From NCBI GenBank assembly GCA_021018995.1, contig CM037585.1, forward strand, positions 124,152,831 through 124,216,830: 64,000 bases of DNA, given 5' to 3'. The DNA is from Chloranthus sessilifolius (taxonomy: Eukaryota; Streptophyta; Magnoliopsida; Chloranthales; Chloranthaceae). The notes under the pieces are model-generated. The model searched no databases, had not been told where the DNA came from, and was given only the letters and a program-made list of their open reading frames with translations. The translations under genes were made by a program, and so were the position numbers. Below, in pieces: positions 5,865 to 49,030 of the stretch; within the stretch, counting starts at the first letter, position 1; each line of letters begins with the position of its first letter.

Positions 5865-6359
5865 GTACAATGAGTATATAATAATATATTGTACCAAGCC
5901 ACACTCACCAAACTCCACAAGTACTCAATCTACGACCCCGAACATCATAGCACTCAATTCCTCAATCTGCAAGTTTTGTGTTCAAATAGAAGCTATACCT
6001 GTGACGTATAGTCGAAGGGTGAGCTACATCCTAGCTCAGCAGAGGAAACTCAACACAATTTTACATCTTATCATGATGAAACATAGATTCAATGTCATAA
6101 TCAAACCTTTTCCTATTTAAAGTTGAACTCATTTCAAAGGTACTTTTCTTATCAAACAAAGACTGATTTCAAATGCTGTTTTCTTATCACACGAACTGAT
6201 TTCCATATCACACAAAATTGATTTCAAAACTGATTTCCTTTTTCACACAAAACTGATTTAAAAGTTGATTTCCTCATCATACAAAACTGATTTCCTTTTC
6301 ATACATAAAAGTGATTTCAAAATATTTATTTATCACATAAAGCTGATTTTCAAAGCCGC

Positions 6360-15630: not shown

Positions 15631-17929
15631 ATCCTGACCCTCTTTAGCGGACAAGTTGTGATTTTATGACCCAATTCACCACAACCCTTACAATAGCGTC
15701 TCTTCTTGTTTGATTGTTCAAAACCAACTTCCATTCCAGACTTCATTCTATCATTGTTGCTTAGCCTACCTTTGTTGGCATCTCATATTGGATCACGCAC
15801 TGTAATGTTGGCATACTCTTATAATAAAATTATGTTGCTTGCCTGGGAGGAGCTGCCCGGAGAGGCCGCGATGCTAGTGCGTCTTTCATTGTCCTCTTTT
15901 ATTCTAATGGTCTCTATGCCTTCTAATAGTTTCATCATCCCTTCTAACGTGTAATCCACCAAGCGATTCAATTCTATCCTCAACTGAATTAACTTCAGTG
16001 CAGCTTCTCTCAGCTTCCATATTTTCATCGTAGATATAGAATTGGAATCCTATTTCTCACCGACCCCCAAACGTATAGTACTATATCTATCATCTTTCGT
16101 CCATCGAGGTAGAATGTACTTAGAAGGAATTTGGTCTACCTCTACCTTGAAGTAAACATGGAAGATGTGAGAACACAACAAACCCTCTATCTCGCAGTGC
16201 TTGTAATCACAAGTGATCGTGGCATCTCCACATTTGAACCAAACTTTGAATATTCGATCGCTATCCTTCATGCCATCCCCACCACTTCTACGCACTTAGT
16301 TTATAATAATCACCCCGGCTTCCTCTTCGATCACCTTTTGGGACTTAAAAGAGGCAAACTTTCGAAACTCAAAGTGAAATTTGTCGAACATGATTCTCGT
16401 ATACACAGCAGCGACATAGCTCTCAATTGAATTTCAGAACAAGAGCTTCGACGTCGTAGAAATTGATACAAGGTCCTCCCTATTTTATCTATCGCGACGA
16501 GATTGGACGGCAAGATCGTATTGCTTGACAAATTTCGTCAAACTCGTTTGGCCATTGACATAGGTATCGAAGAAAGAATTTATACTTTCTTCGCGTTGCA
16601 TAGTGGTCATGTCGGCCCAAAAGGTATCACTCGAGTAGGATGAAATCCATTTCCTTGTAAGATCGTACATTTGTTTGAACCAAGTGTAGTCTTGCAATTA
16701 AAACTCCTCGATGAGTTCTGCCCATCTCCTTTCGAAATCATCAACCGTTTGACTGAACTTGTAATAATTGTACTTTCTCTCGAATTTCTCAAACTTCACC
16801 TTTAACTGACAGAGATGGTTCAATTCATTCCTCCCTAAGTGATATATGCAGAGGCGATGCGCAGTCCCCGGAAGAACTTAGGAGATGGACTTGCTCATCT
16901 CGTTGTATTGATTAGTGATAATTGTATTAGGTTTCTTATGACCCATGAACTTCAACCATGTGTTAAACAACTAAATGAATGTCTCTTTCATCTCATCTGC
17001 AAGCAACATATATCTAAAAAGCGTCGTCTGCCAATAATAGCTGACCCCTATAATAGGACAAAAGATAGCAACAATTTATTTATTTTGTAAGTGGTATCGA
17101 ATACCACCACATCACCAAATTGTTGATACGCCATCAGTGACCTGTGATCAGCCCAAAATATACTATGCATATAATATTCTTCGTCTAGTTCAGCTTCAAA
17201 GAAAAAACCATCTCCTTTATTCTACCTATCAATGAAGGATTCGATCACGTTCATGCACATCGGATGAATGTTACTGTCCTTTCTCACCTTCTTTAGGTAA
17301 TTCCGAGTTTGTTGAGGGCTTACTGTCACCCCAACCTCTCCATCCAAACTCGATAAAATAGCATAAATCTTGGAAGGTGAAACTATGTCATCAAATGCTC
17401 TTATCAATGATTTACTTGCCCCGTTCATCTTATCATGTGATCGTAGTTCATTCACCTTTGTAGGTGTATACAACTGATGATTATGCTACTCTCTAAATTT
17501 CATTACCTCCCACAACTTTTGGTCGTCGACCCTAATTTTCAACCTTACCTCACATCCCCATCTATTATCTCTTGAACACTTTATATCTTTGTGTATTTTG
17601 CGCTTGTCAGACTGCTTGAACCCGTCGAATGAACATACATATTTTCTCTTTATAATTTCCCCCTTTGTGGATTTGTAAGTGTTACTTTTCCTAACGCTGA
17701 AACCAACTTTCTTGGCGTAAAAATTATAGAAGTTAGATGCCTCGTCTTCATGTTTGAATTTCAAGCCGATACGTGGCTTCCATTTCTCGATGGTATTCTC
17801 GGACCCTTCACAACTATCCAATATTTTTATATCACTATCACAACCAAGTAAAACTCTTTCTAAAGAAATCGTCTCAGGGGTGAGATTTAAATCAACAATA
17901 CCTACATTGAATCCTCCAATGGAGTCCAT
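15631..17929 (-). pseudogene. FAR1/FHY3-type MULE transposase, broken
   Basis: A Mutator-like transposase of the FAR1-related type, read on the minus strand from MDSIGGFNVGIVD. The FAR1 zinc-finger domain is visible: FKHEDEASNFYNFYAKKVGF, then RKYVCSFDGFKQSDKRK and, after one stop, HNHQL. The transposase core follows: GDVVVFDTTYKINK (first catalytic Asp), KPNTIITNQYN (the usual Asp is Asn) and TAHRLCIYHLGRNELNHL. Next come a helical part (WISSYSSDTFWADM, REESINSFFDTYV), a SWIM-like box ITCDYKHCEIEGLLCSH, and near the end (about 15640-15700) a zinc knuckle CKGCGELGHKITTC. Several stops and frameshifts break the frame. It once cut and pasted the element; a domesticated FRS gene is less likely given the damage. 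Confidence 0.85.
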
Positions 17930-17959
17930 TACAAACTCTGCATTAGACGAAAAATAAAA

Positions 17960-18930: not shown

Positions 18931-19534
18931 TGTAACGTCTCGAAAATTCGGTACATAAACGTTTCCACCTCGATAAGCGGACCAATGGGTCAAACATTTG
19001 ACCGAGTTAACTTAGACTTGGTTGACTTAAGTTACTTGGTATGTGATGGATTTATTATGCGAGGGAGGTGTAGTGGATACAGACAAAGGCATGTTCACAC
19101 ACATATATGTTAGTAAGCTATAGGTGCTTAACACATAAGGCATGTGTTAAGATTATAAGACAAAAGAGAAAGAGAAGTTATTTCTCTTAGGTTTGTTGTT
19201 TAGAAAATTTAAGGAGAGTAAATGAGAGAGAGAGTTGGGTTGTAAAATCTAGAGAATGGTATTTAATACAAGCGATTGAGCTCGGAAACTTAGCGGATCG
19301 AACTCGGGATCAAGAGAGTGGAGATTTGGGGGTTTGTAAAACCCTAGTGGCATAGAACAAGAGAAAGACGTTCAACTTTTCGAATGGGATAAGAGCTACA
19401 AATCCAAGTGTGTTTAAATTGATAAATAAAGAATTTAAAACTATTGTATATTAGTTAAATGAGTAAGGAATAGGATAGATGATGAAGAAGGAGAAAGATC
19501 ATGTTTAGATCTGGAAGTGTATAAAATCGATTGA

Positions 19535-19925
19535 ACGAAATTACAAATCATTCGATCGGTTTTAACCATAGAAGAGATAGGGAAAAAAGCAAAAGAATTA
19601 TGAAGGAAATGTTCGAACGATTTTAGAAATCGTTTGATTGATTCGAATTCTGAAGGAATCGATCGAAGGACTTTGAGAAATCGTTCGATCGATTTAGGAA
19701 CCTGTGTGAACGATTTGAAAAATCGTTCAATCGGTTTGCTAACTGACAAAAGTATTGTAGAATGAATAGTTTTGGGATCGATCGAACGAAATAGAAATCG
19801 TTCTATCGATTTTAGAGTTTCGTTTAAACGATTTTGCAAATCGTTCGATCGATTTAAATTCGTTTGATCGATTTACAAATCGTTCGATCGATTCAGAAAT
19901 CGTTCGATCGATTTGGATAAAATTC
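19535..19925. repeat. CGTTCGATCGATT word cluster, element G 5' LTR
   Basis: About fifteen variants of AAATCGTTCGATCGATTT, which is nearly palindromic, packed into 390 bp. The same word family recurs in the right LTR (29805-30195) and, within the same element, just upstream of the extra ORF (26745-27140). Confidence 0.85.
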
Positions 19926-20516
19926 AGAGTTTGTTAAGATTTTACATACGAGTAATTATGTATTGGTGTTAGGATTATAACCCAATGTTCTTACATTGAT
20001 AGTGATGAAATAAATGTGTTTGGCCAGGTCTAGTTTAAGCCGGACCTTGTGATGGTTGAATGCTAACTCGGATTGGAGAATCCGAATGTGTAAACGCGAG
20101 TGAGGTAGGGGGAATATCTGACCTCGTACCCTTAATTACGATAACATGTATATGATGATAACCTATGAATGCATGTTTTTCTTACAGTTGAGTTGAATTA
20201 TAATGTGTTCACTTTCAAATTAAGTTGAAAATGTAAAATGTAGAGTAGTATAGAAAAATGAGAAATGTTATGAGAATGTGAAGAAGTGAACTAATAAAAG
20301 AGTTCAATCATCCGAGGGATGTATGTGTACAATGGGCATCCGAAGGGTGCATCAGAAAGTGTGACATCCCAGGGATGTACAGTAGATGCAAGGATCCACG
20401 AACTTGAACATATGTAAATGAGGTTGAACAGGCTGGGAACTTATAATTATTTAGCACGATCACACGGTGAATAACTATATGTAGCACATAATTGATTTAA
20501 AGTTTTGAGAATACCC

Positions 20517-20590
20517 AACCGACGCGGCGGTATATCCGTGATTGACGCGGCAGGATATCCGTGACCGGTACGGCGGCGAATCCGTGCACC
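20517..20590. repeat. Short tandem GACGCGGC/ATATCCGTGA repeat
   Basis: Three imperfect units (GACGCGGCGGTATATCCGTG, GACGCGGCAGGATATCCGTG, GTACGGCGGCGAATCCGTG). The right LTR has a contracted version at about 30785-30835, so unit number changed after insertion. Confidence 0.75.
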
Positions 20591-20948
20591 AGTAGACATC
20601 CCAAGGATGTATAGTAGTAATGTACCCGTCACCTATGAGAAAGGAACGTGGGTCAAGTTAATAGCAAAAATAGTCTAATTAGACGACGATGGAGGGTATT
20701 CCATCGGGGCTCGATGCTATATTGCTCAGAGATTATTTAAGTTACTATTTTAAGTCATGAGACCAGCTTTGTTGAAATCATAAGCATTAATGAACATCAG
20801 ATGTCATGAGTAGAATGATAAAAGCACTCTATTTATTTTATTGCATCTCCAATGGTTTTCAATCAAATTACATTGATGAATTCATGCTTTATATATGTCA
20901 TTAAATGTATGTGAGTAAGTAAGATTTACCTGATCAGATATTATCCCT

Positions 20949-20994
20949 ATTGAGCTAGGATGTAGCTCACCTCTTTTGACTATACGTCACAGGT
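20949..20994 (+). promoter_or_regulatory. Conserved LTR block: hairpin plus GACTATACGTCACAGGT
   Basis: The hairpin TGAGCT-aggatgt-AGCTCA (20951-20969) is identical to that in element A's right LTR. It is followed by GACTATACGTCACAGGT. Element D has the same layout (hairpin arms TGAGCT/AGCTCA, then the same motif). The motif contains TACGTCA, a bZIP-type core, and ends in CAG/GT, which could also be a splice acceptor. Conservation among otherwise unlike LTRs suggests function. Confidence 0.6.
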
Positions 20995-21090
20995 TCAGAG
21001 TTAGGAGCTGCTGCTGGTGAGGTTGATCCCGAGGACTTAGATTACGTTCCGAGGGAAGAATCTGAGCCTCCTCCTGAGAAGTTCTTCTAG
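20995..21090 (+). other. Conserved acidic mini reading frame in G 5' LTR
   Basis: Thirty-one codons directly after CACAGGT, with no ATG. They read SELGAAAGEVDPEDLDYVP, continue REESEPPPEKFF and stop. The G 3' LTR copy (31240-31335) keeps length and frame. Element D's LTR encodes a comparable frame at the same place with LGIEESGGEEDPDHIP and an ESD..LED tail. It may be a terminal exon joined by splicing; no donor has been assigned. A chance frame is possible but less likely given D. Confidence 0.5.
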
Positions 21091-21200
21091 GAGTTTTGCT
21101 GCGTACTTTAAAATTTTGTAAGGGAGAGATTTAAGGCTTGACACGTCAAGCCATGTTTTGTTTATTTTGCAAGAATTAAGATGCCTGTAATATTCTTTTG

Positions 21201-21244
21201 CCGAACCATTTTGGGTGACCGCAGTAACGACACTGATGGTTCGG
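21201..21244 (+). other. Conserved LTR hairpin, element G 5' copy
   Basis: A 9-bp stem CCGAACCAT/ATGGTTCGG lies 265 bp before the LTR end. The D counterpart pairs GAACCAC/GTGGTTC and the A counterpart ACCAC/GTGGT, so a C-to-T change in one arm is matched by a G-to-A change in the other. Confidence 0.6.
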
Positions 21245-21465
21245 GCTAGTTCTTTTGTCCATACAGAGATATGGGATTAGAACTATTTTTTGGATTAATG
21301 TTTGATATGATATATTGTAGAACTGGAGATATGTTCTGCACTATATTCTTATTTTTCTTCTGTATGGTTGGGATGTACCAAGTGTTTCGCATGTTACATG
21401 GGGCACGACCTCGAGGGTCGTGCTGATGACAAGGATTTTGGGTTACCGAAATTCGGACTGTCACA

Positions 21466-21480
21466 GTTGGTATCAGAGTA
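21466..21480 (+). other. Primer-binding site of element G
   Basis: TTGGTATCAGAGTA begins one base after the LTR end. It matches the 3' end complement of plant initiator-Met tRNA (TGGTATCAGAGC), the usual primer of plant Ty3/gypsy elements. Confidence 0.92.
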
Positions 21481-21570
21481 GTTCCTTAGGATTCCTGACA
21501 AGTCTTAGATTATTGTCAGAGTAAAAGGGATCTTCTGCTAATGAAACTTTGGTTTCATGTGCAGAGCGCT

Positions 21571-22881
21571 ATGTCTTCTGGAAGAAGGGGTCAATCAAGA
21601 GGTAGCCAGAATAGGACCTAGAGAGGTGAAGAGGAGTTTTAAGCAGGGTCTAGTAGTAGATACCAAGAAAATTCTCGTGAAGGAGATCGGAGGAGTGAAA
21701 CGGCCGATCGTATCGCATTGGCTATGGAGACTATGGCCGCTGCGATGGATCAGCAGACGCAGCAGACTGCGATACTGGCTGAGCAGATGGCACTATTGGT
21801 AGCTAATAATGTCAATAATGTCAATAGTCATCAGCCACCACCACCGCCTCCTCCAGCGTTGTTGCCCTCGTCGTTTGTTGATTTTAGGAGATTGAGACCT
21901 CCTAGCTTCTATGGGCAGACGGATCCGTTGGAAGAAGAAAATTGGTTAAACCAGATAGAGAAGCTTCTAGATAGATTGCAAAGTACAGAAAATGAGAAGG
22001 TAGGATAGGCTTCCTTCCAGCTTGAGGGAGATGCCGATCCATGGTGGAAATCTATACTGAGGAGGAAGGATATTGAGGACCCACATTGCCTATGGACTTG
22101 GGCAGATTTTGTTAGAGAATTCAATAGGGAATATTTCCCTAAGCAGGTACGAGTACAGATGCGAAGAGACTTTGTGAATCTCTAGCAAAGAGGCATGTCC
22201 GTTCGAGAGTATGGTGTAGAGTTTACACGATTGTCCCAGTTTGCACCAGAGTTAGTGTCCACAGAGATCATGAAGGCAGCCAAGTTTGAAGAAGGCCTAA
22301 GACCAAACATTCGTGAAAGAGTGTCAATTTTCGAACTTGAACGTTATGCGGATGTGATGGGAAAGGCAATAGTGGCTGAGAGGGATATCTATGGTGTATA
22401 CAAGAGAAGGGATCAATCGGATGGAGTGCCGCCAGACCATGGGAGGGTGGGTGAGTATGACTCGGGGAATAAAAAGCCGAGATTTACGACACCAGCACCA
22501 CTCCCTAGACAGATAGCATATACAAAATTTTCTAGCCAGTTGTATCTGCATTGGCGAGACCCATCAGATATGAGAACTCTACAGCCACCATAGGAGTGTC
22601 CGCGAGCCAAGGCTTCTCAAGGGCTGCCTCTTCTACACCAAAGGAGACTTGTGTCAAGTGCGGCAAGCCTCATAGGACAGTTGATTGTAGACGGGGTATG
22701 CAAGGATGTTATCAATGTGGAAAGATTGGCCACATTATCCGAGATTGTCCTGAGATGGCAAAGGAAAGAACGGCTTCTTCTCCTGCACCAAGACCAATCC
22801 AATCTAAGAAGCCGGTAATGCAGGGAAGAGCCTATGCAGTTATGGCTTAGGACGCTCAAAATTTCAACGATATCATACAGG
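21571..22881 (+). pseudogene. gag of element G, first exon
   Basis: Gag starts MSSGRRGQSRGSQ and is rich in Arg, Gln and Ser early on. It continues RLRPPSFYGQTDPLEEENWL, DADPWWKSIL, WADFVREFNREYFPKQVR, REYGVEFTRLSQFAPE and KFEEGLRPNIR. Two zinc-knuckle boxes follow: CVKCGKPHRTVDC and the complete CYQCGKIGHIIRDC. In-frame stops occur near 21619, 22006, 22183 and 22850, with a frameshift before the knuckles (about 22555). The product would form the virus-like particle and bind the genomic RNA. It runs into the intron at 22882 rather than directly into protease. The organisation matches the Gags of A and D. Confidence 0.92.
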
Positions 22882-23042
22882 GTGAGTTTTTGCTTAGATT
22901 GATTTTTTTTTTTAATCGTGTTAGATATCTCGAAAATGTATTTCTGTTTAGTTTTATTTTGAGAAGCATCCACCTAAATAACATATGTGTTGCATGAGTG
23001 TGTGTTGCATGAGTGGAATGCTGAACTAGGTATGCCTTATAG
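22882..23042 (+). other. Putative intron between gag and protease, element G
   Basis: A 161-nt AT-rich insert starts GTGAGTTTTT and ends TGCCTTATAG. Removing it joins NDIIQ-G to TLQVYG in frame, with the junction after the first base of a Gly codon (phase 1). No coding similarity to the relatives exists inside. Element D has a non-homologous-looking 134-nt insert with GT...AG ends at the same codon position and phase (52718-52851). Spliced RNA data would settle it. Confidence 0.75.
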
Positions 23043-26000
23043 GTACCTTGCAAGTGTATGGGAGGGGAAGTGATGTCGCGTACGTAGCAAGAGCACTAAT
23101 TGATCCGGGATCTACCCATTCATATGTCACACCTCGATTCGCAAGGAAGATGAAAGTTCAGCCAGAGACTTTGGATTTTGTCTTGACAGTGTCCATTCCG
23201 ACGGGAAAATCGGTGGATACAGACTTAGTTTGCAAGTCAATGGTCGTAGCTATTAAAGATGGGGATATTTATGGGGAAGTTTTTGAGTAGTCAGTAGATT
23301 TAATTTTGCTCAACATGCAAGGATTCGACGTGATCCTTGGCATGGACTGGTTGTCACAACACTGTGCAACAGTCGATTGTTAGAACAAGGTGGTCACCTT
23401 TAGGCCAAATACGAGACGTTCTTTTCGATTTGTAGGAGTAAGGACGAAGTTTCTACCACTCGTGTTCGCTATCAAAGCGGAACATTTGATCAAAAGTGGA
23501 TGTAATGGCTATCTGGCTTTCCTAAAGGATGACAAGGAAGGGAAAAATGTTGCTTCAGAGATTTCAGTAGTGTGTGAGTTCGACAACGTCTTCCCAGACG
23601 AATTACCAGGACTACCTCCGAAAAGAGAGGTCGAGTTTGCTATCGAATTGGCACCAGGAACGGAGCCAGTTTCTAAGACCCCATATAGGATGGCTCCGGC
23701 AGAGTTAAAGGAGTTGAAAGAGCAATTACAGGAGCTCTTAGACAAAGAGTTTGTGAGACCGAGTGTATCTCCTTGGAGTGCGCCGGTCTTGTTTGTCAAG
23801 AAGAAGGACGGGTCAATGAGGTTGTGCATTGACTACTGTCAGTTGAGCAAGCTCACTATAAAGAACAGGTATCCATTACCAAGGATAGATGATCTGTTTG
23901 ACCAATTACAGGGGCAAGATATTTTTCTAAGATCGACTTGAGATCGGGATATCATCAACTCAAGGTCAAGGCAGAGGATGTTCAAAAGACTGCTTTTAGG
24001 ACGAGATACAGACACTACGAATTCTTAGTGATGCCGTTTGGGTTGACGAATGTGCCGTCGTCATTTTTGGATCTAATGAATCGGGTGTTTAAACCACACC
24101 TTGACTCTTTCGTCGTTGTGTTCGTCGACGATATCCTCATATACTCTAAATCAAAGCAAGAACATGAAGTGCATTTGAGAACCGCTCTACAAACACTGCG
24201 TGAACACCAATTGTACACCAAACTCAGTAAGTGTGAGTTTTGATTGGAGGAAGTAAGCTTTTTGGGGCATGTTGTCCCAAAGGAAGGTGTCACGGTGGAT
24301 CCAGCAAAGATCAAAGTTGTAGTGCAGTGGGAACAGCCTAAGACAATGACTGATATACGTAGTTTCCTTGGTCTAGCTGGGTATTATCGATGCTTTGTGG
24401 AGGGATTTTCAGCGATATCGGGGCCACTAACGAGGCTTACACGAAGGACGTGAGATTCGAGTGGACCGAAGCTTGTGAGAAGAGCTTCCAAGAGCTTAAA
24501 ATGCACCTCACTTCAGCTCCAATACTTGCAATTCCAACAGGCAGTGAGAGTTTTGCAGTCTATAGTGACGATTCACATCACGATTTAGGTTGTGTGCTTA
24601 ACCAATATAAGAAAGTAATTGCATATGGATCGAGGCAGTTGAAAGAACATGAGAAGAATTACCCAACGCATGACCTTGAACTAGCCGCAGTCATTTTTGC
24701 ATTAAAAATTTGGAAGCACTACTTGTACGGGGAAACTTTCGAGATCTTCACTGACCATAAAAGCCTCTGATATTTGTTCACGTAGAAGGAGCTAAACATG
24801 CAACAACAAAGGTGGATGGATTTTCTCAAAGATTATGACTGCTCCATTCAATATCACCCAGGCAAGGCAAATATTGTCGCGGATGCTTTGAGTCGGAAGG
24901 GTTCGGCTCAGTTAGCTAGTCTAATATTGGGAATGCACAGGTGGAAATTATTTGAAGACCTGTCATTGTATGACGCGACGATTGAGGTACAAGCTTCAGG
25001 TACTCTATTGGCCAATATTTTAGTGAGACCGACAATTTTCGAGCACGTACACGAGCTGCAAATGAGAGACTCTGAGTTAGTCAAGATTCGGCAAGAAGTG
25101 ATGGACGGTACTAGGCCGAATTTTTCTATAAGGGAAGATGGTTCCTTATTATTCAGAGGACGTCTGTGTATTCCAGTCGATGCTGGTCTAAGACAGACCA
25201 TTTTGGATGAAGCTCACAAGTCTCAATATGCATCCATCCTGGTAGTACCAAGATGTATCAAGACATGCATAAGAGCTACTGGTGGAGAGGTCTGAAACGC
25301 GACGTAGCGGAGTACGTGTCAAAATGTTTGACTTGTTAACAGGTGAAATTCGATCATCGACACCCTGCTGGATTATTGCAACCTCTACCCATACCAGAGT
25401 GGAAATGGGAGTCGATCTCCATGGATTTCATAGTAGGGTTGCCACGGACGGCAAAGAGGCACAATGCTATATGGGTTGTTATGGATAGACTGACGAAGAT
25501 AGCTCATTTCTTACCCTACAACACGATGTATTCTGTTGGACAACTTGTGGAACTTTATATGAAGGAGATAGTGTGGTTGCACGGCATTCCGAGCAGCATA
25601 GTATCTGATCGTGACCCATTGTATACCTCTAAATTTTGGCAAAATTTTTAAGAAGGAATGGGCACTCGATTTGATTTTAGTACGGCATTTCATCCACAAA
25701 CTGACGGGCAAACAGAACGAGTAAATCAAGTGATAGAAGACATGCTCAGGGCGTGTATGCTCGAATTACAAGGCTCGTGGGATCAACATCTACCATTGAT
25801 CAAATTTACATATAACAACAGTTTTCAAGCAAACATCAGAATGACACCGTATGAAGCTCTCTATGGGAGGCGATGCCGATCACCCATCAACTGGGAAGAA
25901 ACTGGAGAAAAATTTATGTTGGGTCCGAAAATTCTTGAGAACAATGATATGTTTGTACGAATGATTAGAGATAGGCTTAAAGCAGCTCAGAGTCGGCAAA

Positions 26001-26464
26001 AGAGCTATGCCGATTTTAAGAGAACAAGTCTCGATTTTGACGTTGGCGATCACGTCTTTGTGAAAGTATCACCCATGAAGGGTGTGATGAGGTTCGGACG
26101 GAAGGGGAAGTTAAGTCCTCGTTATATAGGACCCTTTGAGGTTTTGGGTCGAGTCGGTGAAGTAGCCTATCGCATCGGTTTTCCTAAGTTGTTTAATAGT
26201 GTCCACAACGTTTTTCATATTTCAATGCTCCGGAAGTATGTAAAGGACCCCACGCACATTTTAGGCGGTCAGCCGATTGAACTACATGAGGATATGACTA
26301 TGATTGAAGACGCTACTCAAATTTTGGATCATAAGGACAAAACTCTGCGTACTAAAATCATTCCATTAGTACTCGTCAAATGGGGTACTCATCCAGTCGA
26401 GGAAGCAACTTGGGAACGAGAGGCCGAAATCAAGGAATTGTATCCTCATTTGTTTGAGCAATAG
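23043..26464 (+). pseudogene. pol of element G (PR-RT-RH-INT-chromodomain), broken
   Basis: Domains run in Ty3/gypsy order. Protease is ALIDPGSTHSYV, where the catalytic D-S/T-G has become DPG. Reverse transcriptase has [45 protein letters not shown] and an intact [10 protein letters not shown]. RNase H includes [14 protein letters not shown] and IFTDHKSL. The integrase zinc region is followed by [25 protein letters not shown] and TDGQTERVNQ, which supply the D, D and E. A C-terminal chromodomain-like part (KIIPLVLVKWGTHPVEEATW) points to a chromovirus, probably the Tekay/Del group. Stops and frameshifts lie near 23290, 23380, 23935, 24243, 24450, 24770, 25290 and 25650, so it is dead. The last frame (25658-26464) is intact and ends the polyprotein. 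Confidence 0.93.
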
Positions 26465-26744
26465 AATACAAGTGCTACTCCCAAATTCTGTTTTGTCATT
26501 CTCAGTTGAGACTCAACTTGTGTGAACAAATGTATGTAAATTGGTTTTGGATGATGTTTTGTAATGATACGTGTTAATATCTTACGTTTCGGTCTAAGCA
26601 TTCGAGTATGTAGGGTTGAACTATGAGTAGGTTCTCAGCATGGAGCTTCCACCTTGTTGGTAGAGCTACTTTCAAGTTGATTGTCTCACAACACAACTAT
26701 GGATCATAGGACATGTAAGTGTGATCTCAAGAAAATTGTTGAGA
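26465..26744 (+). other. Element G spacer after pol
   Basis: About 280 bp without coding potential between the pol stop and the palindromic word cluster. No motif was recognised. Confidence 0.6.
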
Positions 26745-27140
26745 AATTAGTTCGATCGAAATTAGAATCGTTCGATCGAATTTCTGTAGGCTAAAACCTT
26801 TGAGGTGTTGCCAGAAAACCGTTCGAACGATTTTCAAAATCGTTCGAACAAAATGCAAAGCCCAGTGAGTATTCCAGCTGTTGCCAGAAACCGTTCGATC
26901 GATTTTTCGAATCGTTCGAACGAAGTGTGTTGGCCAGTGGAGTAGAAAATGGCCTTAAAATTTGCCCAGTAAATCGTTCGATCGAACCTTCAAACCGATC
27001 GAACGAAATTTTGGGAGGGTACTTTAACAATGGAAATTCGTTCGATTGAAATACAATTCGTTCGATCGAATTTGTGGACTGTCATTTAAATTTTTGGAAA
27101 CCGATCGAACGAATTTCAATTCGTTCGATCGATTTTAAAA
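26745..27140. repeat. CGTTCGATCGAA word cluster upstream of the extra ORF
   Basis: About a dozen variants of CGTTCGATCGAATT and AAACCGATCGAACGAA lie between pol and the extra ORF. The words are of the same family as those in this element's LTR (19535-19925). Element D has its own LTR-type words at the equivalent place (48880-49030). Confidence 0.8.
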
Positions 27141-27142
27141 CC

Positions 27143-27151
27143 TATATATAT
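27143..27151 (+). promoter_or_regulatory. TATA box, candidate internal promoter of element G
   Basis: TATATATAT immediately follows the palindromic cluster and lies about 255 bp before the extra ORF's ATG. Element D has TTATATAAG (minus) about 230 bp before its homologous ORF. The shared order of word cluster, TATA, leader and ORF suggests separate transcription; this is inferred only from layout. Confidence 0.5.
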
Positions 27152-27405
27152 GGCATGCGATACATTTTACCATTCACTTAAATCTTCAACCTCTTCGTTT
27201 TCTTTCTTCAAAGGAGAGTCTTTGGACTGTGTAAGTCGCCGATTTCCGTCAACTCCGGCCACCTCCGAGCAAACTTTTCTTCATCTTAGGTAACCTCAAA
27301 CCCTTCTAGGTTTACTACACTTTCCAAGGGGATTCATTTCCCCTATTTTAGCTAGCATTTGAGCTAGATTTGACTTAAAACCCTAGTTTTAATTTTTGCC
27401 CCACA

Positions 27406-28745
27406 ATGCCACCTAAAACTCGCCAAGCATCGGCGAGTGCGGCACCCAAGAAAACCACTACGGGTTCTTCTTCCCAACAGCCACCGAAGAAGCCACCTAC
27501 GGGTTCTTCGTCGGCACCACCTTCCCAAGCACCACCCCCATCACAACCAAGGGAACGACCAAATGAGTGGTGGTCTGACAAAGACTTTGAACCCGATTGG
27601 ACTATAGATCTAAAGATTTTCGCCAAGCGGGATGAGACCCGGTGGGCCTTTGACTATATTTACACCGCGGGTTTGACGGGCATCCTTCGCCCCTGTCACG
27701 ATACTTTTTACCCTAGGATAGTTCGATTGTTCTATCAGAACATGGAACTGGTTAAGGACCCGAGCATCCTCAAAACCAAGATTGATAATCGGCCTTATAC
27801 GTTTACTTTTAATGACGTGGCCGATGCATTGGAATGTTTCCATACGTATAACCACAAAGATATCGCCCTGGCTGAACCTTTTCCGGCCACATTGGATTAT
27901 AAATATGTCGCTGCTCAGATGACCCATGGCCGAACGGGTTCGGGTCACTCAATTAAGCGGGTCGACTTGCCTTGCGAGCTTTGGATGCTCGAATCTATAA
28001 TCCAATGTAATTTATACCCGTTACGCCATAAAATCGAAAGAGTCGGTGAAGTTCAAATGGCACTTTTTTCGGCTTATAGCGGTCGATGGTTTAACGCACC
28101 GAAAATGGTCCTTGAGGGGATGAAATATGCTCGCAAGTAGATGCTTGAGGGCGTCAAGAAACCAATTGATGATATGCCGTATGCCCGACTCATTTCCTTA
28201 ATGGTCGAGGATTACGCTGGTGATGACACCTACATCCTCTCCAAGTGTGAATTCAAACTGACGGGTAACGTCCAACCATACACCATGGTGGATTGGAACA
28301 TAACATATGTTAAATTGACCAAGAAGCCCTTGGTGGAGGAACCGCCGCCACCTGAACAACAACCTGCGGATCAACCACGTGGCTCTGACCTGCTAGCCCA
28401 TGATACTCCACTTTATGATGAGCCTCCTCGACACCCGGAACATGAGTAAGTGCCACCACCACACGGAGGCATTCCTAGGCCGACCGTCGCCGATCTCTAT
28501 GTATTGTTGGAAGCCAATACGCATCAGATGGCAGAGAATAATCATCCTCTCAACCGCCGACTTGATTACTACGACGCATTGCACGCTGAGGAGATGCGTT
28601 TCATTTATCCTTCGACTATCTCCAGTGTATGGCGGCAGCGCAGGCTTGGGTCCGGGATGCATCGACTTCGGGTACGGGCGCTCATGGAGATGGTGGTGCT
28701 CAACCCGATGTTGGTACTGATCCTCCTAGTGATGAGGAGTCTTGA
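27406..28745 (+). pseudogene. Additional ORF 3' of pol, element G (function unknown)
   Basis: About 446 codons from MPPKTRQASASAAPKK. The N-terminus is Pro/Ser/Thr/Lys-rich. The conserved core has NEWWSDKDFEPDW, LRPCHDTFYPRIVRLFYQ, FTFNDVADALE, TGSGHSIKRVDLPCELWML, NLYPLRHKIERVGE and ALFSAYSGRWFNAPKMVLEG. The end is acidic (DVGTDPPSDEES) and reached through a one-base deletion near 28614. In-frame stops lie at 28138-28140 and near 28447. Element D encodes a homologue at the same place. No transmembrane helix, zinc knuckle or enzyme motif is visible, so an env role is not supported. The core vaguely recalls the 'putative plant transposon protein' family; that is an impression. Confidence 0.8.
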
Positions 28746-29193
28746 GGGTTCTTTCCATTTCTGTGATATGTATTTATGGGGTGTATTTTTGGGCGGGTAC
28801 AGAACAAATTTGAAAACTGTAAATGTTTAACACAGGTACTTGGGACTGATGTCCTTTTGAACAATCGTGGCATGGTTGCCACTCCCAATTATCTCCATAC
28901 TTTTTGTTATATATGTATTTTGTGTTTTCATGTGGGTCATGATTCGTGAGTTATGTTGTTGTGTGTATTCTATGATTTAATGATGTGATTGTTTGTTTGC
29001 GACTGAGTTTCTTACAGGGTGTGTGTTTGCACAACTAAATTATGTGCGATGTGTGTACGTATATGTGATAGTTCCTTTTTGTCCAACCTCTGTTGCTCTC
29101 AATAGCCTTGTTGTGTGGGTATGCTCCCATCCCGGTGTGTGTGGGGGGGGGGGGGTGCCCTTGCGTTTAAAATTTTCGCGGACTAAAATTCCC
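28746..29193 (+). other. Element G 3' untranslated region
   Basis: TG-rich non-coding sequence from the extra ORF to the polypurine tract, including a G run at 29143-29155. No gene is visible. Confidence 0.6.
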
Positions 29194-29203
29194 GAGGGGA
29201 GAA
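29194..29203 (+). other. Polypurine tract of element G
   Basis: GAGGGGAGAA directly before the 3' LTR, the expected plus-strand primer. Confidence 0.88.
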
Positions 29204-29804
29204 GGTAACGTCCCGAAAATTCGAAACCTAAACGGTCCACCTCGATAAGCGGACCAATGGGTCAAACATTTGATCGAGTCAACTTAGACTTGGTTGACTT
29301 AAGTTACTTGGTATGTGATGGATTTATTATGCTAGGGAGGTGTAGTGGATACAGACAAAGGCATGTTCACACACATATATGTTAGTAAGTTATAGGTGCT
29401 TAACACACAAGGCATGTGTTAAGATTATAAGACAAAAGAGAAAGAGAAGTTATTTCTCTTAGGTTTGTTGTTTAGAAAATTTAAGGAGAGTGAATGAGAG
29501 AAAGAGTTGGGTTGTAAAATCTAGAGAAGGGTATTTAATACAAGCGATTGAGCTCGGAAACTTAGAGGATCGAACTCGAGATCAAGAGAGTGGAGATTTG
29601 GGGGTTTATAAAACCCTAGTGGGATAGAACAAGAGAAAAAGGTTCAACCTTTCGAATGGGGTAAGAGCTACAAATCCAAGTGTGTTTAAATTGATAAATA
29701 AGGAATTTAAAACTGTTGTATATTAGTTAAATGAGTAAGGAATAGGATAGATGATGAAGAAGGAGAAAGATCATGTTTAGATCTAGAAGTGTATAAAATC
29801 GATT

Positions 29805-30195
29805 GAACGAAATTACAAATCATTCGATCGATTTTGACCATAGAAGAGATAGGGAAAAAAGCAAAAGAATTCTGAAGGAAACGTTCGAATGATTTTAGAA
29901 ATCGTTCGATCGATTTGAATTCTGAAGGACCGATCGAACGACTTTGAGAAATCGTTCGATCGATTTAGGAACCTGTGTGAACGATTTGAAGAATCGTTCA
30001 ATCGGTTTGCTAACTAACAAAAGTATTGTAGAATGAATAGTTTTGGGATCGATCGAACGAAATAGAAATCGTTCGATCGATTTTAGAGTTTTGTTCGAAC
30101 AATTTTGCAAATTGTTCGATCGATTTAAATTCGTTCGATCCCAAAACTATTCATTCTATCCCAAAACGATTTTAGAAATCGTTCGATCGATTTGG
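29805..30195. repeat. CGTTCGATCGATT word cluster, element G 3' LTR
   Basis: The counterpart of 19535-19925, with the same near-palindromic words. It is interrupted by the inverted templated insertion at 30131-30167. Confidence 0.85.
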
Positions 30196-31239
30196 ATAAA
30201 ATTCAGAGTTTGTTAAGATTTTACATATGAGTAATTATGTATTGGTGTTAGGCTTATAACTCAATGTTCTTACACTGATAGTGATGAAATAAATGTGTTT
30301 GGCCAGGTCTAGTTTAAGCCGGACCTTATGATGGTTGAATGCTAACTCGAATTGGAGAATCCGAATGTGTAAACGCGAGTGAGGTAGGGGGAATATCTGA
30401 CCTCGTACCCTTAATTACGATAACATGTATATGATGATAACCTATGAATGCATGTTTTTCTTATAGTTGAGTTGAATTATAATGTGTTCACTTTTAAAAT
30501 AAGTTGAAAATGTAAAATATAGAGTAGTATAGAAAAATGAGAAATGTTATGAGAATGTGAAGAAGTGAACTAATAAAAGAGTTCAATCATCCGAGGGATG
30601 TATGTGTACAATGGGCATCTGGAGGGTGCATCAGAAAGTGTGACATCCCAGGGATATACGGTAGATGTAAGGATCCACGAACTTGAACATATGTAAATGA
30701 GGTTGAACAGGCTGGGAACTTATAATTATTTAGCACAATCACATGGTGAATAACTATATGTAGCACATAATTGATTTAAAGTTTTGACGCGGAGATATCC
30801 GTGACTGCAAGATACTGATGGTGAATTCGTGCACCAGTAGACATCCCAGGGATGTATAGTAGTGATGTACTCGTCGCCTATAAGAAAGGGACGTGGGTCA
30901 AGTTAATAGCAAAAATAGTCTGATTAAACGACGATGGAGGGTATTCCATCGGGGCTCGATGCTATATTACTCGGGGATTATTTAAGTTACTGTTTTAAGT
31001 CATGGGACCAGCCTTGTTGAAATCATAAGCATTAATGAACATCAGATGTCATGAGTAGAAAGATAAAAGCACTCTATTTATTTTATTGCATCTCCAATGG
31101 TTTTCAATCAAATTACATTGATGAACTCATGCTTTATATATGTCATTAAATGTATGTGAGTAAGTAAGATTTACCTGATCAGATATTATCCCTATTGAGC
31201 TAGGATGTAGCTCACATCTTTTGACTATACGTCACAGGT

Positions 31240-31335
31240 TCAGAGTTAGGAGCTGTTGCTGGTGAGGTTGATCCCGAGGACTTAGATTACACTCCGAGGG
31301 AAGAATCTGAGCCTCCTCTTGAGAAGTTCTTCTAG
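31240..31335 (+). other. Conserved acidic mini reading frame in G 3' LTR
   Basis: Thirty-one codons after CACAGGT reading SELGAVAGEVDPEDLDYTP, then REESEPPLEKFF and stop. It is equal in length and frame to the 5' LTR copy. If an RNA starting upstream were spliced to the preceding CACAG, this would be its last coding exon. Confidence 0.5.
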
Positions 31336-31710
31336 GAGTTTTGCTGCGTACTTCAAAATTTTGTAAGGGAGAGATTTAAGGTTTGGCATGTCCAGCCATG
31401 TTTTGTTTATTTTGTAAGAATTAAGATGCCTGTAATATTCTTTTGTCGAACCATTTTGGGTGACCGTAGTAATGGCACTGATGGTTCGGTTTAGTTCTTT
31501 TGTCCATACAGAGGTATGAGATTAGAACTATCTTTTGGATTAATGTTTAATATGATATATTGTAGAACTGGAGATATGCTCTGCACTATATTCTTCTTTT
31601 TCTTCTGTATGGTTGGGATGTACCAAGTGTTCCGCATGTTACATGGGGCATGGCCTCGAGGGTCGTGCTGATGGCACGGATTTTGGGTTGCCGAGATCCG
31701 GGCTATCACA

Positions 31711-37157: not shown

Positions 37158-40100
37158 ATGGCTGCAGCTCTAGAGTGCTGGTCGAGCCGCACCAGCACCG
37201 ACGAGGATATGGTAGAACAGGTACTGATGAAAACCTTAGACCGATCAGAAGGTTTATTATCCAAAGAACCGGCGACCGCAGCATCTTCTTCGTCTTCTTC
37301 GTCTTCGTCTTCGTCTGCTGTACAGAAAACGTGGCAGAGATTCGGACGCAACGTGGCAGGAGCCATTGCCACACTTAAGAACTCTTTGAATCTCGACTCG
37401 GCACGAGAAAATCCAACGGCTAGGGTCGACATTTGCAGGAAGCTCGTTTGGGGAGGTATCGTACGCAATCTCACTCAACTCTACCCTGGTAGTCAGCTGC
37501 CTGAGAAGCTCATTTCGAACATTCGGAAGCATTTCGATTCGTTGCCGTTGAGGTGAGGAGGTTTTTTTAGGTTGAATTCGAATTGGGTTTTTGTTTTTTT
37601 ATATGAATTTTGTTTAAGTGAGCTGTTGTTTAGGTTGAATTCGAAGCGGGTTTATTGATGTTTGGATGAATGCTGTTGAGGTTGATTTCGAATTGGTGTT
37701 GTTGGATGAATGTTGATGATGAGAGGAATTTTTGAGGTCGAGTTCGAATTGGTCTGTTTGTTGTTTATGTTTATTCTGAAGTGGATTTCGATCTGAAAGC
37801 TGGTTTTTTCGAATTTTTGAGATTAAACTCAAGTTGGGGTTTTTGTTGTTTTGGACTGTTTTGCTCAAGCGGGTTTCGATCTGAAAGATGATTTTCGAAT
37901 TATTGAGATTGAATTCAAATTGGGTTTTCTGTTGTTGTGGCGAGGAATTTTTGAGGCTGAGTTCGAATTGGGTTGTTTGTATAAATGTTGTTGTTTTGAG
38001 TTATGCTCAATTGGATTTCGATCTGAGAGAAGGTTTTGAATTTTTGAGATTGAAATCGAGTTGGGTTTTTTTTTTTCTTGTTTATATTGAATGTTGTTGT
38101 TTTGGACAGTTATGCTCAAGCGGGTTTTGACATGAAAGATGTTTTTCTACACATTCGATTGATCGAACAGTCAGCAGTCGACGATCACCCGGCGATTTTG
38201 ATACAAGAGATGTCGGGTGGTAGCGAGATGATGCAGGGATCTGTTTTCAAGCTCTCATTTGCTTGCAATTCTGCGATTTCGTGGCCGGCAATGTCGGGGG
38301 CTCTTGATAGTGCCTCAATCTGTTGTAAAAAGATACAGATCTTCGAGAAAAAGGGTTTCACTCTCGGGGTTATTCTTGTGTTGGCGCAGTCTGGGCAAGA
38401 GAAATCATTCAAAACTCGGATTGAAACTGCTTTGAAATTTTCCCTCAAGAAGCCGAAACCTGCTTCAATGAAGCTCCCATTTGGCCTCTGTGGATGCCAA
38501 GAAGAGACCACCAAGAACCACAACCAGAGGGAAGGAGAATTTGATAAACCAATTGATTCTGAAAACACAGCACCCCCGCCACCACAGGTGTTTCATCTTG
38601 AAAACCCTCTTCCCACTTCATCATCTGTCATCTCGGTCGATGAATGGCAGACCATTCGATCAGGTGAGGAGGAGATTCAGAAATGGCTGTTAAACCCTGA
38701 TCAGATTGAGTTCACCGACCAGACCGGACCCAATTCGTTCAAGGGGATGTGCAAGGGGAAAAGGGTGTTGATTGAGAGAATTCGCGGATGTGAGAGGGGA
38801 AATCCTTATGAGTTTGAGATCCGGCGAGATCTGCTTGATCTCATGAGTTGTGGTCACAAGAACATTTTACAATTCTATGGAGTTTGTATCGACGAAAACC
38901 ACGGATTGTGTGTTGTGACCAAGTTGATGGAAGGCGGGTCAGTTCACGAGATGTTGCAGAAGAGCAAGAAGCTTCAAATCAAAGAAGTAATGCGGATTTC
39001 GGTGGACGTTGCAGAAGGGATGATGTTTATGAACGATCACGGAGTTTGTTATAGGGATCTCAACACACTACGGATTCTATTGGATAGACAAGGAAACGCT
39101 TGCCTCGGAGACATGGGCATTGTTACTTCTTGCAAGAACTCTGGCGAGGCGATGGAGTATGAAACGGCCGGTTACCGATGGCTAGCTCCGGAGGTTAGTC
39201 TCCTCTGTCCTGATCATTTTATCATTCTAATCATGCTTAATTGCAGAGCTCTGATTCATTTTGAGTTATACAAACAAAACATGTTCATCAACATTAAGCT
39301 CTTAATTACAGAGCTCTGATTCATTTTGAATTATACAAACAAAACATGTTCACCAACATTAAGCTCTTGTTGTCCACACTCCACATTGATGCACATGCAC
39401 ATTTGAAGGACAAATTTGTGGGCTTGTAGTCTGCCCAGTAGCGATCAGATGATCCTAATCTTCTACTCATGGATATGTTTATGAATTATGAGGAGCCTTC
39501 GATTAGTGCCAGTTTTATGCTACTATGACAGCCAAGAGTTGACCCATCAATTAGGTGGTTTTAATATATGAGCATTTATGCCCGAGTTAGTTTACTGGTT
39601 CGCTTGATTTGTGGTTCGCCACTATCAAGCGAACACAATTGACAAGGGGCAGGGCAAGTTTCAAATGTATATATTAATTATATAACATTAATTTGTACTT
39701 TTTAAAGAAATATGAATATGAGTATATGACCACTTGGTTTGTTACGGAACTTCAAAAACTTTTGAGGTCTCGGGTCCAAAAGAATGGCTACATTGATGCA
39801 CATCTCTAGATCGACAATGCAAAAGAATGGCTCGAAAAATATTCTCCATCTTGATCAATGTGGTCAAACTTCAAAAAAAATCTAAATTAATGGTATGTTG
39901 AATTTACCTCGTACCTGTTAATTTTAGATGATGTTTGACTGCTTTGAATGAGATGAAGGAGATCATTTTTCGTCCAAATCTTTTGCACCAAGAATCTTTA
40001 CATCATGGCACACCTCTCGGTGAGCAAGTGCCTAAAATTTCTTTTATTTTGTTATTTGTCATTAGTAGAAGAAGTGCCGGTAAAACAACTATTGGCAACA

Positions 40101-44059: not shown

Positions 44060-44250
44060 ATCTGAAATAGCCCAAACTCGCTCAGTCGCGCATGCGAAAC
44101 CTAAGGTTGCACGAGCGACTTCTCATAGTCATACTCAGTCGCGTGAGTGATTGTTCACAAATGATTTTCACGCCTATTCTGAAGCCTAGCTCGTGCGAGC
44201 AACTTCAAGTCACACGTGCGAGTTTTAAGGTGGCACGAGTGACTTTCGGG
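44060..44250. repeat. CG-rich word cluster in D left LTR
   Basis: Words such as CAGTCGCGCATGCGA, GCACGAGCGACTT and GCTCGTGCGAGCAACTT. The same words stand upstream of this element's extra ORF (48880-49030), including the identical GTCGCGCAAGCGACTT seen in the right LTR. Confidence 0.75.
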
Positions 44251-44539: not shown

Positions 44540-46345
44540 ACACAGTGGCAGAACCACATATACATGAGTGCAAGTGAGCGTCCTCACTCAAACCCAAAAC
44601 CTTTTTTTTTATATTTATATTATAAAACTTCCTCTATTCTCTCTCTTCTCCCTCTTTTCTCACTCAAACCTATGCCCTCCCTCTTCTCTCACTCTAACCC
44701 ACACCCTCCCTCCTTCCTCCCTCTCTTTTCTCTCTCTAAACCCCTTGTCTCCCTCTCTAAACAAGCACGGCAGCACCCTCCCTCTATTTTCCCTCTTTTC
44801 TCTCTCTAAAAGGCTAAAGGCCTAAAATCTTTCTAAATCGGCAGCCTATTTCTCTCTCTGAAACCCCTCTCTAAAATTAGCGACCTATTTCTCTCTCTAA
44901 AACCCCTCTCTTTCTCTAAAATCAGAGGCCTATTTCTCTCTCTAAACCAGCGCGGTAGCGCCCTCCCTCTATTCTCTCTCTTTTCTTTCTAAAAGGCTAA
45001 GCCTACAACTCTCTCTAAGTCGGTGGTCTATTTCTCTCTCTAAAATTGGCGGCCTATTTCTCTTTCTAAAACCTCTCTCTCTCTTTTCTCTCTCTAAAAC
45101 CCCTCTGCCATAGTGCCACTGGCGCCGGCTGTCAGCCACACCCACTCACCACTCCCACCCCACTCACACGCTATAGATCTCCATCTTCAAAGTTTTTTTA
45201 TTTACTTTTAATTTTTTTGCTCTTTCATTAATTATATGAAATTACTAATTATACTGTTACACATCAAGTTTCTTTTATATTCACATCAATTAAAAATAAT
45301 ATTGTGCCTCCTCTTCGAAAGAGGTTCCTCTTGCCAATAACTATTTATTCTATTTCCATATGGTTGAGAAAGATTTAGTGACACATAAGAATAAGTTTCA
45401 TAGTTAAGATGATGATTTTAAGGACAGATTAAATTGGATTTCCCTATTATGATGGTAGTTTTAATTTTAATAGCAAATTACTTCATGGTTGAAGCCTGGG
45501 GCATATTAAAGTAAGTTTGTTAGCTGAGATGATGGCTATAATAAAAACTTAATTGGAGTTTATGGCTGAAATGACAAAGAATGACAAATATAATAATTTT
45601 AATAGCAGATTAAATTAGGTTTAATAACAGAGATGTGCTAGTTTTATGGTTTAATGGTCATTATAAGCGTTTTAATAATGGGTTGCGAGTAAAAAAAAAA
45701 CTTATATTTTTGTTTAAATCTTTTTATATTTTCAACCAAAATCTTGTTCTACTTAGCCTTCTTTTTAGACGACCTAGTGGAGAGATGAAACCGTTAATTT
45801 CTTTCTTATTATTTAAAAATGGCTAAAATTAATAAAATTTCACTAATTTTGGCAATTTTCGTTAATTTCATTGAATTTTTTTACAATTTCGGAGAAATGA
45901 CCGAAATTTCGTTTAAAGCTTCGTCTGAACCCCATTTCAATGAATTTCGCTGAAATTTGTCACTATCACTTGCGCCCCGGCTGGGTCAAAATCCGATAGA
46001 ACCATCAGTGGTAGTCGGTTGATTCTATGCGAGGGTCAAACGAAAAACAGAGACACTTTATACTATTATTTATATGAAAACAAACCTCCTCGGATCGCTC
46101 GCCCCGACCGACCAATCGTTTCGGAAGGACTACTAATTGGTAGTCCGCATAAGAAGAAAGGGATGTAGGTACTGCTCGGATCATCAAAGCTCAATATATA
46201 TGGGTATAGAAAATCAGAAGAAGAAGAGATGACACAGTGGAAATTGTGGATGACTTTGACGATCGGTCCATTGTTGGTCTCCCCGATGACTAATCCGAGA
46301 TTTATGTGAGCTACAAATTCCCATTCCAGCGGCTTGTTCGCTCAT
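44540..46345. mobile_element. 1.8 kb insertion in element D left LTR
   Basis: The right LTR is continuous across this point (TCTCTTAGCATACACACGTC, near 56285). Here CTAGCACACACACACA is followed by 1.8 kb before TCACACACATGTCCTC resumes. The flanking ACACACA could be a short target duplication or native repeat. The insert begins GTGGCAGAACCACA and has a long CTCTCTCTAAA-rich part (44590-45115). No transposase frame or clear inverted ends were found, so the class is unknown. Confidence 0.7.
44590..45115. repeat. CTCTCTAAA-rich minisatellite
   Basis: Units such as CGGCCTATTTCTCTCTCTAA and AACCCCTCTCTAAAATT recur, strongly pyrimidine-rich on the plus strand. It lies within the insertion. Confidence 0.8.
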
Positions 46346-48879: not shown

Positions 48880-49030
48880 ATAGTCGTGCGAGCAACATCT
48901 TACAGTCACTCGAGTGACCAATAAGTTGAAATGGCATTGAAGTTGTCGCACAAGCAACTGTGGTGCCTAGTTTTTCTCGTGTAGCTTTCTGAAGCAGTCG
49001 CGCAAGCGACTTAAACCTCGCATGCGAGTT
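48880..49030. repeat. CG-rich word cluster upstream of D extra ORF
   Basis: GTCGTGCGAGCAACA, GTCACTCGAGTGACC, GTCGCGCAAGCGACTT and CTCGCATGCGAGTT. They belong to the same family as in this element's LTRs (44060-44250, 55780-55990) and differ from element G's words. Confidence 0.75.

Follow-up and report, generated by a model that had tools for sequence, protein, structure and literature searches.

Family-specific palindrome arrays and an extra gene downstream of pol in chromovirus retrotransposons of Chloranthus sessilifolius

The chief new finding is the presence of DNA arrays of 12–16 bp palindromes in the spacer between pol and an extra downstream gene, and in the LTRs, of chromovirus-type retrotransposons; each family has a palindrome of its own. 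The DNA analysed, referred to here as the window, is a stretch of 64,000 nt from Chloranthus sessilifolius (assembly GCA_021018995.1, contig CM037585.1, positions 124,152,831–124,216,830, forward strand), in which two elements, G and D, carry both the gene and the arrays.

Element G is flanked at both ends by ATTTT, its target-site duplication, and its two LTRs are 93.3% identical.

18931–31710, + strand: element G, as delimited by LTR ends and PBS context, with 5' LTR at 18931–21465, internal region, and 3' LTR at 29204–31710
21545–26464, + strand: interrupted gag-pol of G, ending with an integrase SH3 domain and a chromodomain (about 26318–26458)

The SH3_Tf2-1 domain of G pol scored 87.6 bits, and the chromodomain at the C-terminus of its integrase exceeded the cut-off (PF00385, 26.5 bits vs 25.1), on which ground G is assigned to the chromovirus-type Ty3/gypsy elements; G and D presumably belong to a Tekay/Del-like clade. 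D is the older insertion, given that its LTRs are only 81–82% identical. A segment of about 1.8 kb (44541–46338), missing from the D 5' LTR, seems to split the D 3' LTR and is probably a later insertion. The share of residues common to the two elements falls from 64–77% in the reverse transcriptase through about 60–66% in the integrase to about 40% in most of gag and, in the extra gene, 35%. Between pol and the extra gene lies a non-coding spacer of about 900 bp in G, compared with about 700 bp in D. Element E (1–8989, − strand), in which an LTR pair (aligned parts 90.5% and 94.6% identical) surrounds about 2.3 kb containing gag only, is a non-autonomous relative. Elsewhere in the window, a 421-codon open frame with DUF7377 and a protein kinase domain (38054–39316, + strand) is possibly a host gene, and ORFs at 17048–17959 (− strand) presumably encode, by their look, a FAR1/MULE-type transposase-related protein.

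The extra gene lies in the following pieces.

27406–28137, + strand: first open piece of the G extra gene (aORF), 244 codons, encoding a basic proline-rich N-terminus and most of the conserved core
28141–28446, + strand: second piece of the G gene, in the same frame beyond an in-frame TAG
28590–28745, + strand: last piece of the G gene, encoding the acidic end, in a different frame
47388–48636, − strand: broken extra gene of D, in pieces 48633–48439, 48544–48113, 48109–47672 and 47684–47484, with the end reaching 47388

A preliminary description of this DNA had presented the two stretches as a long ORF, conserved with common motifs and occupying the same place in two diverged elements. Length is the part that does not hold, since the G copy is interrupted by stops (TAG at 28138–28140, TAA at 28447–28449) and the frame change, and the D copy by a frame change past TEWW, an in-frame TGA (48112–48110) and a second frame change near 47684. 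Homology is borne out: a tblastn search with the G frame matched the D locus with 34.8% identity over 250 aligned positions (E 2.6e-46), and an N-terminal WW piece (E 3e-4) and a C-terminal helix piece (E 9e-5) were matched separately. The motifs quoted at the time are present in both stretches, and both genes are located 3' of pol, in sense to their own element (G on the + and D on the − strand).

Palindromes, which the preliminary description does not mention, were found both upstream of the extra gene and in the LTRs, in numbers far above those expected from dinucleotide shuffles.

26748–27132, + strand: G spacer array, 12 palindromes TCGNTCGANCGA (at most 2 mismatches), 0.57 expected; neighbours paired, 20–21 bp apart
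19527–19911, + strand: G 5' LTR array, TCGNTCGANCGA, 14 sites, 0.93 expected; 8 of 13 gaps 20–22 bp
29799–30190, + strand: G 3' LTR array, TCGNTCGANCGA, 13 sites, 0.68 expected; 6 of 12 gaps 20–22 bp
48884–49009, − strand: D spacer array, 4 sites of TCGCNCGNGCGA type; GTCGCTCGAGCGAC with at most 3 mismatches gives 4 observed, 0.00 expected
44086–44242, − strand: D 3' LTR palindromes, 6 sites by TCGCNCGNGCGA scan; TCGNTCGANCGA scan of the whole LTR gives 5 observed, 0.62 expected
55785–55965, − strand: D 5' LTR palindromes, 5 sites by TCGCNCGNGCGA scan; TCGNTCGANCGA scan of the whole LTR gives 5 observed, 0.50 expected
1809–2388, − strand: one LTR of element E, TCGCTCGAGCGA, 8 observed, 1.0 expected over the LTR; 3 of 7 gaps 20–22 bp
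7524–7720, − strand: other LTR of element E, TCGCTCGAGCGA type, 5 observed, 0.85 expected over the LTR

Scanning the D LTRs with GTCGCTCGAGCGAC (at most 3 mismatches) gave 4 and 2 sites. The coding regions are nearly free of sites, with 0 in gag-pol of both elements, 0 in the extra gene of G and 1 in that of D.

The extra gene is abundant in the genome (2.17 Gb in 32 contigs searched). At least 150 matches to the G piece were obtained with 80–100% identity (47,821 first-look candidates), with open frames reaching 508 codons among the matches listed, together with at least 150 matches to the D piece (58–100% identity) and 131 to the counterpart in a third family, represented by locus L064 (87–100%). 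Many matches of the L064 family are stop-free, with frames of up to 607 codons, and this family looks younger than the G family. Twenty G-family copies, selected for a stop-free matched piece and a long frame, were fetched, and all 20 have frames of 419–508 codons. Pairwise pN/pS over 19 of these (L015, whose WW motif reads KWW, was left out) was 0.130 for the core, 0.43 for the linker, 0.23 for the C-terminal part and 0.179 overall, and pN reached pS in none of the 171 core pairs. Uncorrected values were used because corrected dS was mostly undefined, with synonymous sites near saturation (pS about 0.6). The core is thus constrained similarly to the integrase (0.146, 14 copies), in line with the purifying selection that the preliminary description had put forward for checking in intact copies, and such low ratios cannot be produced by picking open copies alone. 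The closest pair, L010/L011, gave a dN/dS of about 0.5 (0.056 and 0.118), as expected of young copies no longer under selection. Association with gypsy pol, the other check proposed, was likewise found, with a G-type integrase match no more than 2.3 kb upstream of the extra gene in 21/21 copies (at least 250 residues in 14, partial in the rest). Moreover, integrase distances agree with extra-gene distances (Mantel r 0.81, 0 of 2000 permutations, 12 copies), and between families the gene retains 35–46% identity at the same position.

A gene-blind sample was drawn with an SH3_Tf2-1 domain search (at least 150 matches), from which 12 loci were taken according to list position, irrespective of content. 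The extra gene was found in two of them, L062 and L064, and was not found in the other 10 sampled integrase loci, consistent, for this genome, with the earlier statement that chromoviruses normally have no such gene. By eye, an L064-family match lies on the same strand, about 2 kb or less downstream, for seven listed integrase matches, one of them L064 itself. A tree of 22 integrase rows places the 12 carriers in a single clade (98/96), of which only L062 and L064 are independent carriers (eight others were picked because they have the gene, and the remaining two come from the window), and the 10 non-carriers fall outside, with L053, L055 and L057 as neighbours of the clade. This topology points to a single gain of the gene in one chromovirus clade.

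The product is a protein of about 440 residues. Its basic proline-rich N-terminus is followed by a conserved core of about 250 residues and a variable acidic linker, and the C-terminal stretch is predicted, with low confidence, to form long helices. The first 50 residues carry a net charge of +5 to +7 in 14 full-length G-family members; the core, with a net charge of −6 to +5, is not clearly basic, which counts against DNA binding. No transmembrane-like segment was seen in 16/16 members by hydropathy alone (maximum 19-residue Kyte-Doolittle mean not above 1.03), in agreement with the preliminary reading. Its passing impression of a likeness to the ‘putative plant transposon protein’ family turned out to have substance at sub-threshold level, as PF20167 (Transposase_32) was matched by 15 of the 16 members with a best E of 1.8e-6 and scores of 15.2–21.9 bits (20.6 for the first member), short of the gathering score of 45; the window D piece gave no PF20167 match. 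These sub-cut-off alignments cover, in single members of three families, positions 2–173 (L064), 7–173 (L036) and 13–158 (L023) of 177. From such profile matches the extra protein appears to be a distant PF20167 relative, below threshold and no formal member. Neither VANC/DUF1985 nor an RNA-binding domain was among the Pfam matches of the members. Protein database and IMG/VR searches, in collections that may hold few plant proteins, returned no homologues, and the single match of a PDB sequence search (E 0.055) was taken as chance. Two AlphaFold models were poor (mean pLDDT 41.8 and 44.9) and do not establish a DNA-binding fold, which counts against a regulatory role. One strand-strand-helix stretch bears what we take to be a resemblance to the plant mobile domain proteins (MAIN/MAIL1; PMC7156037), to which no relationship is claimed.

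Throughout the families carrying the gene, the arrays recur at the same two places. All 20 fetched G-family copies have sites in the spacer and in the downstream LTR, with spacer counts of 5–14 (lowest in L020 with 5, and L016, L018 and L025 with 7 each) and 0–1 site within the extra gene. D-type sites occur within 1,500 bp upstream of the gene in 12/12 D-family loci, in L031 only at about 950 bp. The two independent carriers have palindromes of their own, TCGATCGATCGA in L062 and ATTGATCGATCAAT in L064, each in spacer and LTR. A motif-free test, counting 10-mers that are at least 80% palindromic, alike and 19–22 bp apart, flagged 2 of the 12 integrase loci, L062 (score 12) and L064 (30), both of them gene carriers; the other ten scored 0 except L057 (1) and L061 (3), in which the motif scan gave 4 sites, in an LTR resembling those of E by eye, and 6 scattered sites, respectively.

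A comparable pairing was found behind a different pol. PF20167 itself has at least 150 matches over its cut-off in this genome, and the best of them, in the 12 loci examined, belong mostly to one family of 394-residue proteins (loci L041–L052 and L065). DNA upstream of one of the 12 loci, L042, was checked (L065) and encodes, besides an integrase, a reverse transcriptase of Ty1/copia type (RVT_2, E 8.8e-39 and 1.8e-24). Upstream of the PF20167 gene, GGACGTCC occurs in 11 of the 12 loci, L041 being without an array. The boxes of this family, ACGGACGTCCGT, have a CGG-CCG core, as do the Sirevirus boxes in PMC2829016, one of which is listed as GTCGGACGTCCGAC; judged by this core only, the family is probably a Sirevirus. 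The palindrome thus differs in each of five families in this genome. The motif-free test flagged 16/20 G spacers and 9/12 copia spacers but 0/12 D spacers, because the D palindromes are imperfect.

Neighbouring sites favour one distance. Counting successive gaps up to 120 bp, gaps of 20–22 bp, i.e. two helical turns of DNA, account for 83/193 in G spacers, 105/170 in G LTRs, 15/33 in D spacers and 41/85 in copia spacers. In the window G spacer, 6 of 11 gaps are of this size, compared to 0.80 for random placement (none of 5000 placements as high). Phasing over all distances was mixed (R at 10.3 bp: D spacers 0.82, L062 0.51, G spacers 0.46, copia 0.43, L064 0.20), with no helical phasing past nearest neighbours for the G LTR sites (R 0.06), and our claim is therefore confined to neighbour spacing. 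In 21 aligned spacers, motif columns are more conserved than the others (0.772 over 152 columns vs 0.587 over 603; Mann-Whitney p 1.7e-20), a comparison that favours the motifs, whose columns were defined from these very sequences, and in which columns are non-independent. The CpG observed/expected ratio of the window G spacer falls from 1.28 to 0.45 when sites are masked, meaning that CpG is depleted outside the sites and not inside; the effect is smaller in the G LTRs (1.18 to 0.88 and 1.01 to 0.70) and the D spacer (1.36 to 1.22).

Palindromes of the two regions change together. In 21 G-family copies, the fraction of sites that are fully symmetric is correlated between spacer and LTR (rho 0.81, p 8e-6, not corrected for descent). 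Nine protein columns split the symmetric from the asymmetric copies at 75% or more, four in the core and five in the C-terminal half, and three of the four core columns fall in the conserved TGSGHSI-KRVD stretch, which ends in SRAH in the symmetric group. For these residues (184–187 in L019 numbering; copies L009–L028), SRAH or KRVD was compared with the palindrome symmetry class, and residue 184 fits in 18 of 19 copies, the exception, L016, combining symmetric palindromes with the other residue type. Since about two independent switches lie behind this pattern, the link between loop and palindrome is a lead only.

TATA-like sequences adjoin the spacer arrays.

27143–27150, + strand: TATA-box-like sequence of G, 10 bp past the last palindrome and 263 bp before the ATG
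48874, − strand: TATA-like sequence of D, 9 bp beyond the spacer array and 238 bp before the ATG

Such a box is located 261–276 bp before the start in 14 of the 20 G-family copies as well as in window G; in L062 and in both window elements, G and D, it follows the final palindrome by 9–10 bp. In the stretches inspected for L064 and for copia copy L042, no such box was seen. Directly after the LTR arrays, TATAA was found within 60 bp in just 1 of 20 copies. These positions suggest that in several families the extra gene probably has a promoter of its own.

Taken together, the best explanation for the arrays, the family-specific palindromes, their joint change and the pairing with a PF20167-type gene in two superfamilies is binding of the protein to its own palindromes. 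It is proposed, at what we judge to be an even chance, that the PF20167-like extra protein works in the nucleus as a dimer, recognising specific DNA sequences and regulating the element that encodes it. It would bind the arrays of the LTRs and of the spacer between pol and gene; the palindromes would suit a dimer, and their 20–22 bp spacing the contact of adjacent dimers. Binding beside the internal TATA box may control transcription of its own gene, and binding in the LTRs that of the whole element, either through activation or by protecting these CG-rich stretches from methylation, in the way VANC proteins act on VANDAL transposons. The copia pairing (11/12 loci), the basic N-terminus and the predicted C-terminal helix count in favour of such a regulator. 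Several observations count against it. Arrays without the gene in cis occur in element E, in L057 (4 sites) and in four env-less Sireviruses of PMC2829016; conversely, env occurs without boxes in six Sireviruses of the same source, and copia L041 lacks an array. At the cut used, the motif-free test missed 12/12 D loci, 4/20 G copies and 3/12 copia loci, and to these are added the L016 mismatch, the unphased G LTRs, the lack of TATA after LTR arrays and the weak hhalign match of the extra proteins to the copia PF20167 proteins (probability 2.8%, E 0.016).

The main rival is binding by a host factor, in which the palindromes are promoter boxes for a host transcription factor that drives LTR and internal gene, and the gene product acts elsewhere (particles, RNA binding or transport). 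This is possible, if clearly less probable than an even chance: PMC2829016 reads the Sirevirus boxes, found there also in four env-less elements, as possible sites of stress-related plant factors and support of an internal promoter, a TATA-like box adjoins the arrays in G, D and L062, and element E has arrays with no gene. However, five family-specific palindromes and their joint shift in two regions fit an element-borne partner better than one host factor, and arrays and gene co-occur in the sample of 12 integrase loci. An env-like gene as in Athila or Sirevirus, encoding an envelope-like or movement protein for cell-to-cell transfer of particles, would agree with the position and sense of the extra gene and with its distant likeness to PF20167, reported also for a sense gene of sunflower Athila (PMC11728184); we nevertheless regard it as improbable, as the 16 members have no transmembrane-like segment (hydropathy maximum 1.03) and a basic N-terminus, and the arrays would be left unexplained. 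A similarly poor candidate is a role in suppressing RNA silencing or in binding RNA. Such a role has been put forward for the 5' extra ORFs of certain Tekay elements, whose products in maize and sorghum are structurally like double-stranded-RNA-binding proteins (PMC11728184), but those ORFs are 5', the arrays would again go unexplained and an RNA-binding domain was not among the Pfam matches. That the gene is a passenger, nested fragment or captured sequence without function is very unlikely, for although both window copies are broken, pN/pS is 0.13–0.18 across copies near synonymous saturation, 35–46% identity is kept between families at the same place, and integrase and gene distances agree (Mantel r 0.81).

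Extending the proposal of a self-regulating DNA-binding protein, it is tentatively suggested, as possible though doubtful, that PF20167-type genes behind pol, rather than coding for envelopes, supply the trans-acting part of a self-recognition system. Elements of both Ty1/copia (Sirevirus-like) and Ty3/gypsy (chromovirus, perhaps Athila) would share it, the protein of each family reading its own palindromes, two turns apart in the LTR and beside the internal promoter, and opening or de-silencing its own copies; the core loop TGSGHSI-KRVD or -SRAH may belong to the reading head, and gag-only relatives like element E may be served in trans. The combination of a PF20167-type gene with spaced palindromes in chromovirus and copia thus offers one concrete, testable functional idea, and an alternative to the usual view of such post-pol genes as virus-like envelopes. 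If true, it would help to explain the high copy numbers of such families.

For extra ORFs of plant Ty3/gypsy elements, the principal survey is said to be Steinbauerova et al. 2011, which may hold related elements; in the open-access literature our searches turned up neither a chromovirus described as carrying a PF20167-type gene 3' of pol nor a proposal that PF20167 proteins bind the palindromes. The preliminary description had called the gene the best candidate for an undescribed component; that it is wholly undescribed is not supported, as a sense PF20167 gene between pol and 3' LTR is reported for a sunflower Athila element (PMC11728184) and another follows a Ty1/copia pol in this genome, at the one locus checked. 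That Athila gene is likewise Ty3/gypsy, sense, in the interval from pol to 3' LTR and related to PF20167; Athila, however, is a non-chromovirus lineage, and the chromovirus proteins described here are under the PF20167 cut-off. A PF03078 (Athila) search was empty in control genomes too and says nothing on Athila arrays. The Tekay extra ORFs (PMC11728184) are also conserved in one chromovirus group and absent from sister groups but sit 5' of gag-pol, whereas this gene is 3' of pol. The TRP28 ORFs of Retand (PMC11963269) share the interval from pol to 3' LTR, and a regulatory, DNA-binding role was suggested for them; unlike the sense gene here, they are antisense, contain PF04195 and belong to a non-chromovirus lineage.

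The closest parallel for the arrays is in Sireviruses, whose palindromic CG-rich boxes reach high copy number in the LTR, also cluster 5' of the post-pol gene, vary between elements and are CpG-island-like (PMC2829016). Placement in the LTR and 5' of the gene, and palindromy, are alike, but Sireviruses have a Ty1/copia pol and a CGG-CCG core, while the arrays here accompany a chromovirus chromodomain integrase and have TCG/CGA or TTGATCGATCAA cores, listed as TCGNTCGANCGA, TCGCNCGNGCGA and TTGATCGATCAA; against the boxes of that source can be set the 20–22 bp spacing measured here in the G, D and copia arrays. The available text of PMC2829016 does not propose that the env-like protein binds the boxes, and both this source and PMC7264820 call the function of env-like genes open. 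VANC-like action of extra ORFs in LTR retrotransposons has been raised as a question in PMC12844716, in the available part with no motifs. VANC proteins bind motifs repeated in the non-coding DNA of their own VANDAL elements and remove methylation (PMC5735166, PMC10398659). The likeness is one of logic: an element-encoded protein and short motifs in its own non-coding DNA, family-specific and changing in concert, and, as here, arrayed in non-coding regions with nearly none in coding regions. VANC binding is known from ChIP-seq and gel shift (PMC5735166, PMC10398659), whereas the present arrays were read from sequence alone, and the nine-base motif of VANC21 is arrayed in one orientation, compared to palindromes at two-turn spacing here. 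Should the proposed self-regulation be true, retrotransposons would join VANDAL transposons as carriers of sequence-specific self-regulation.
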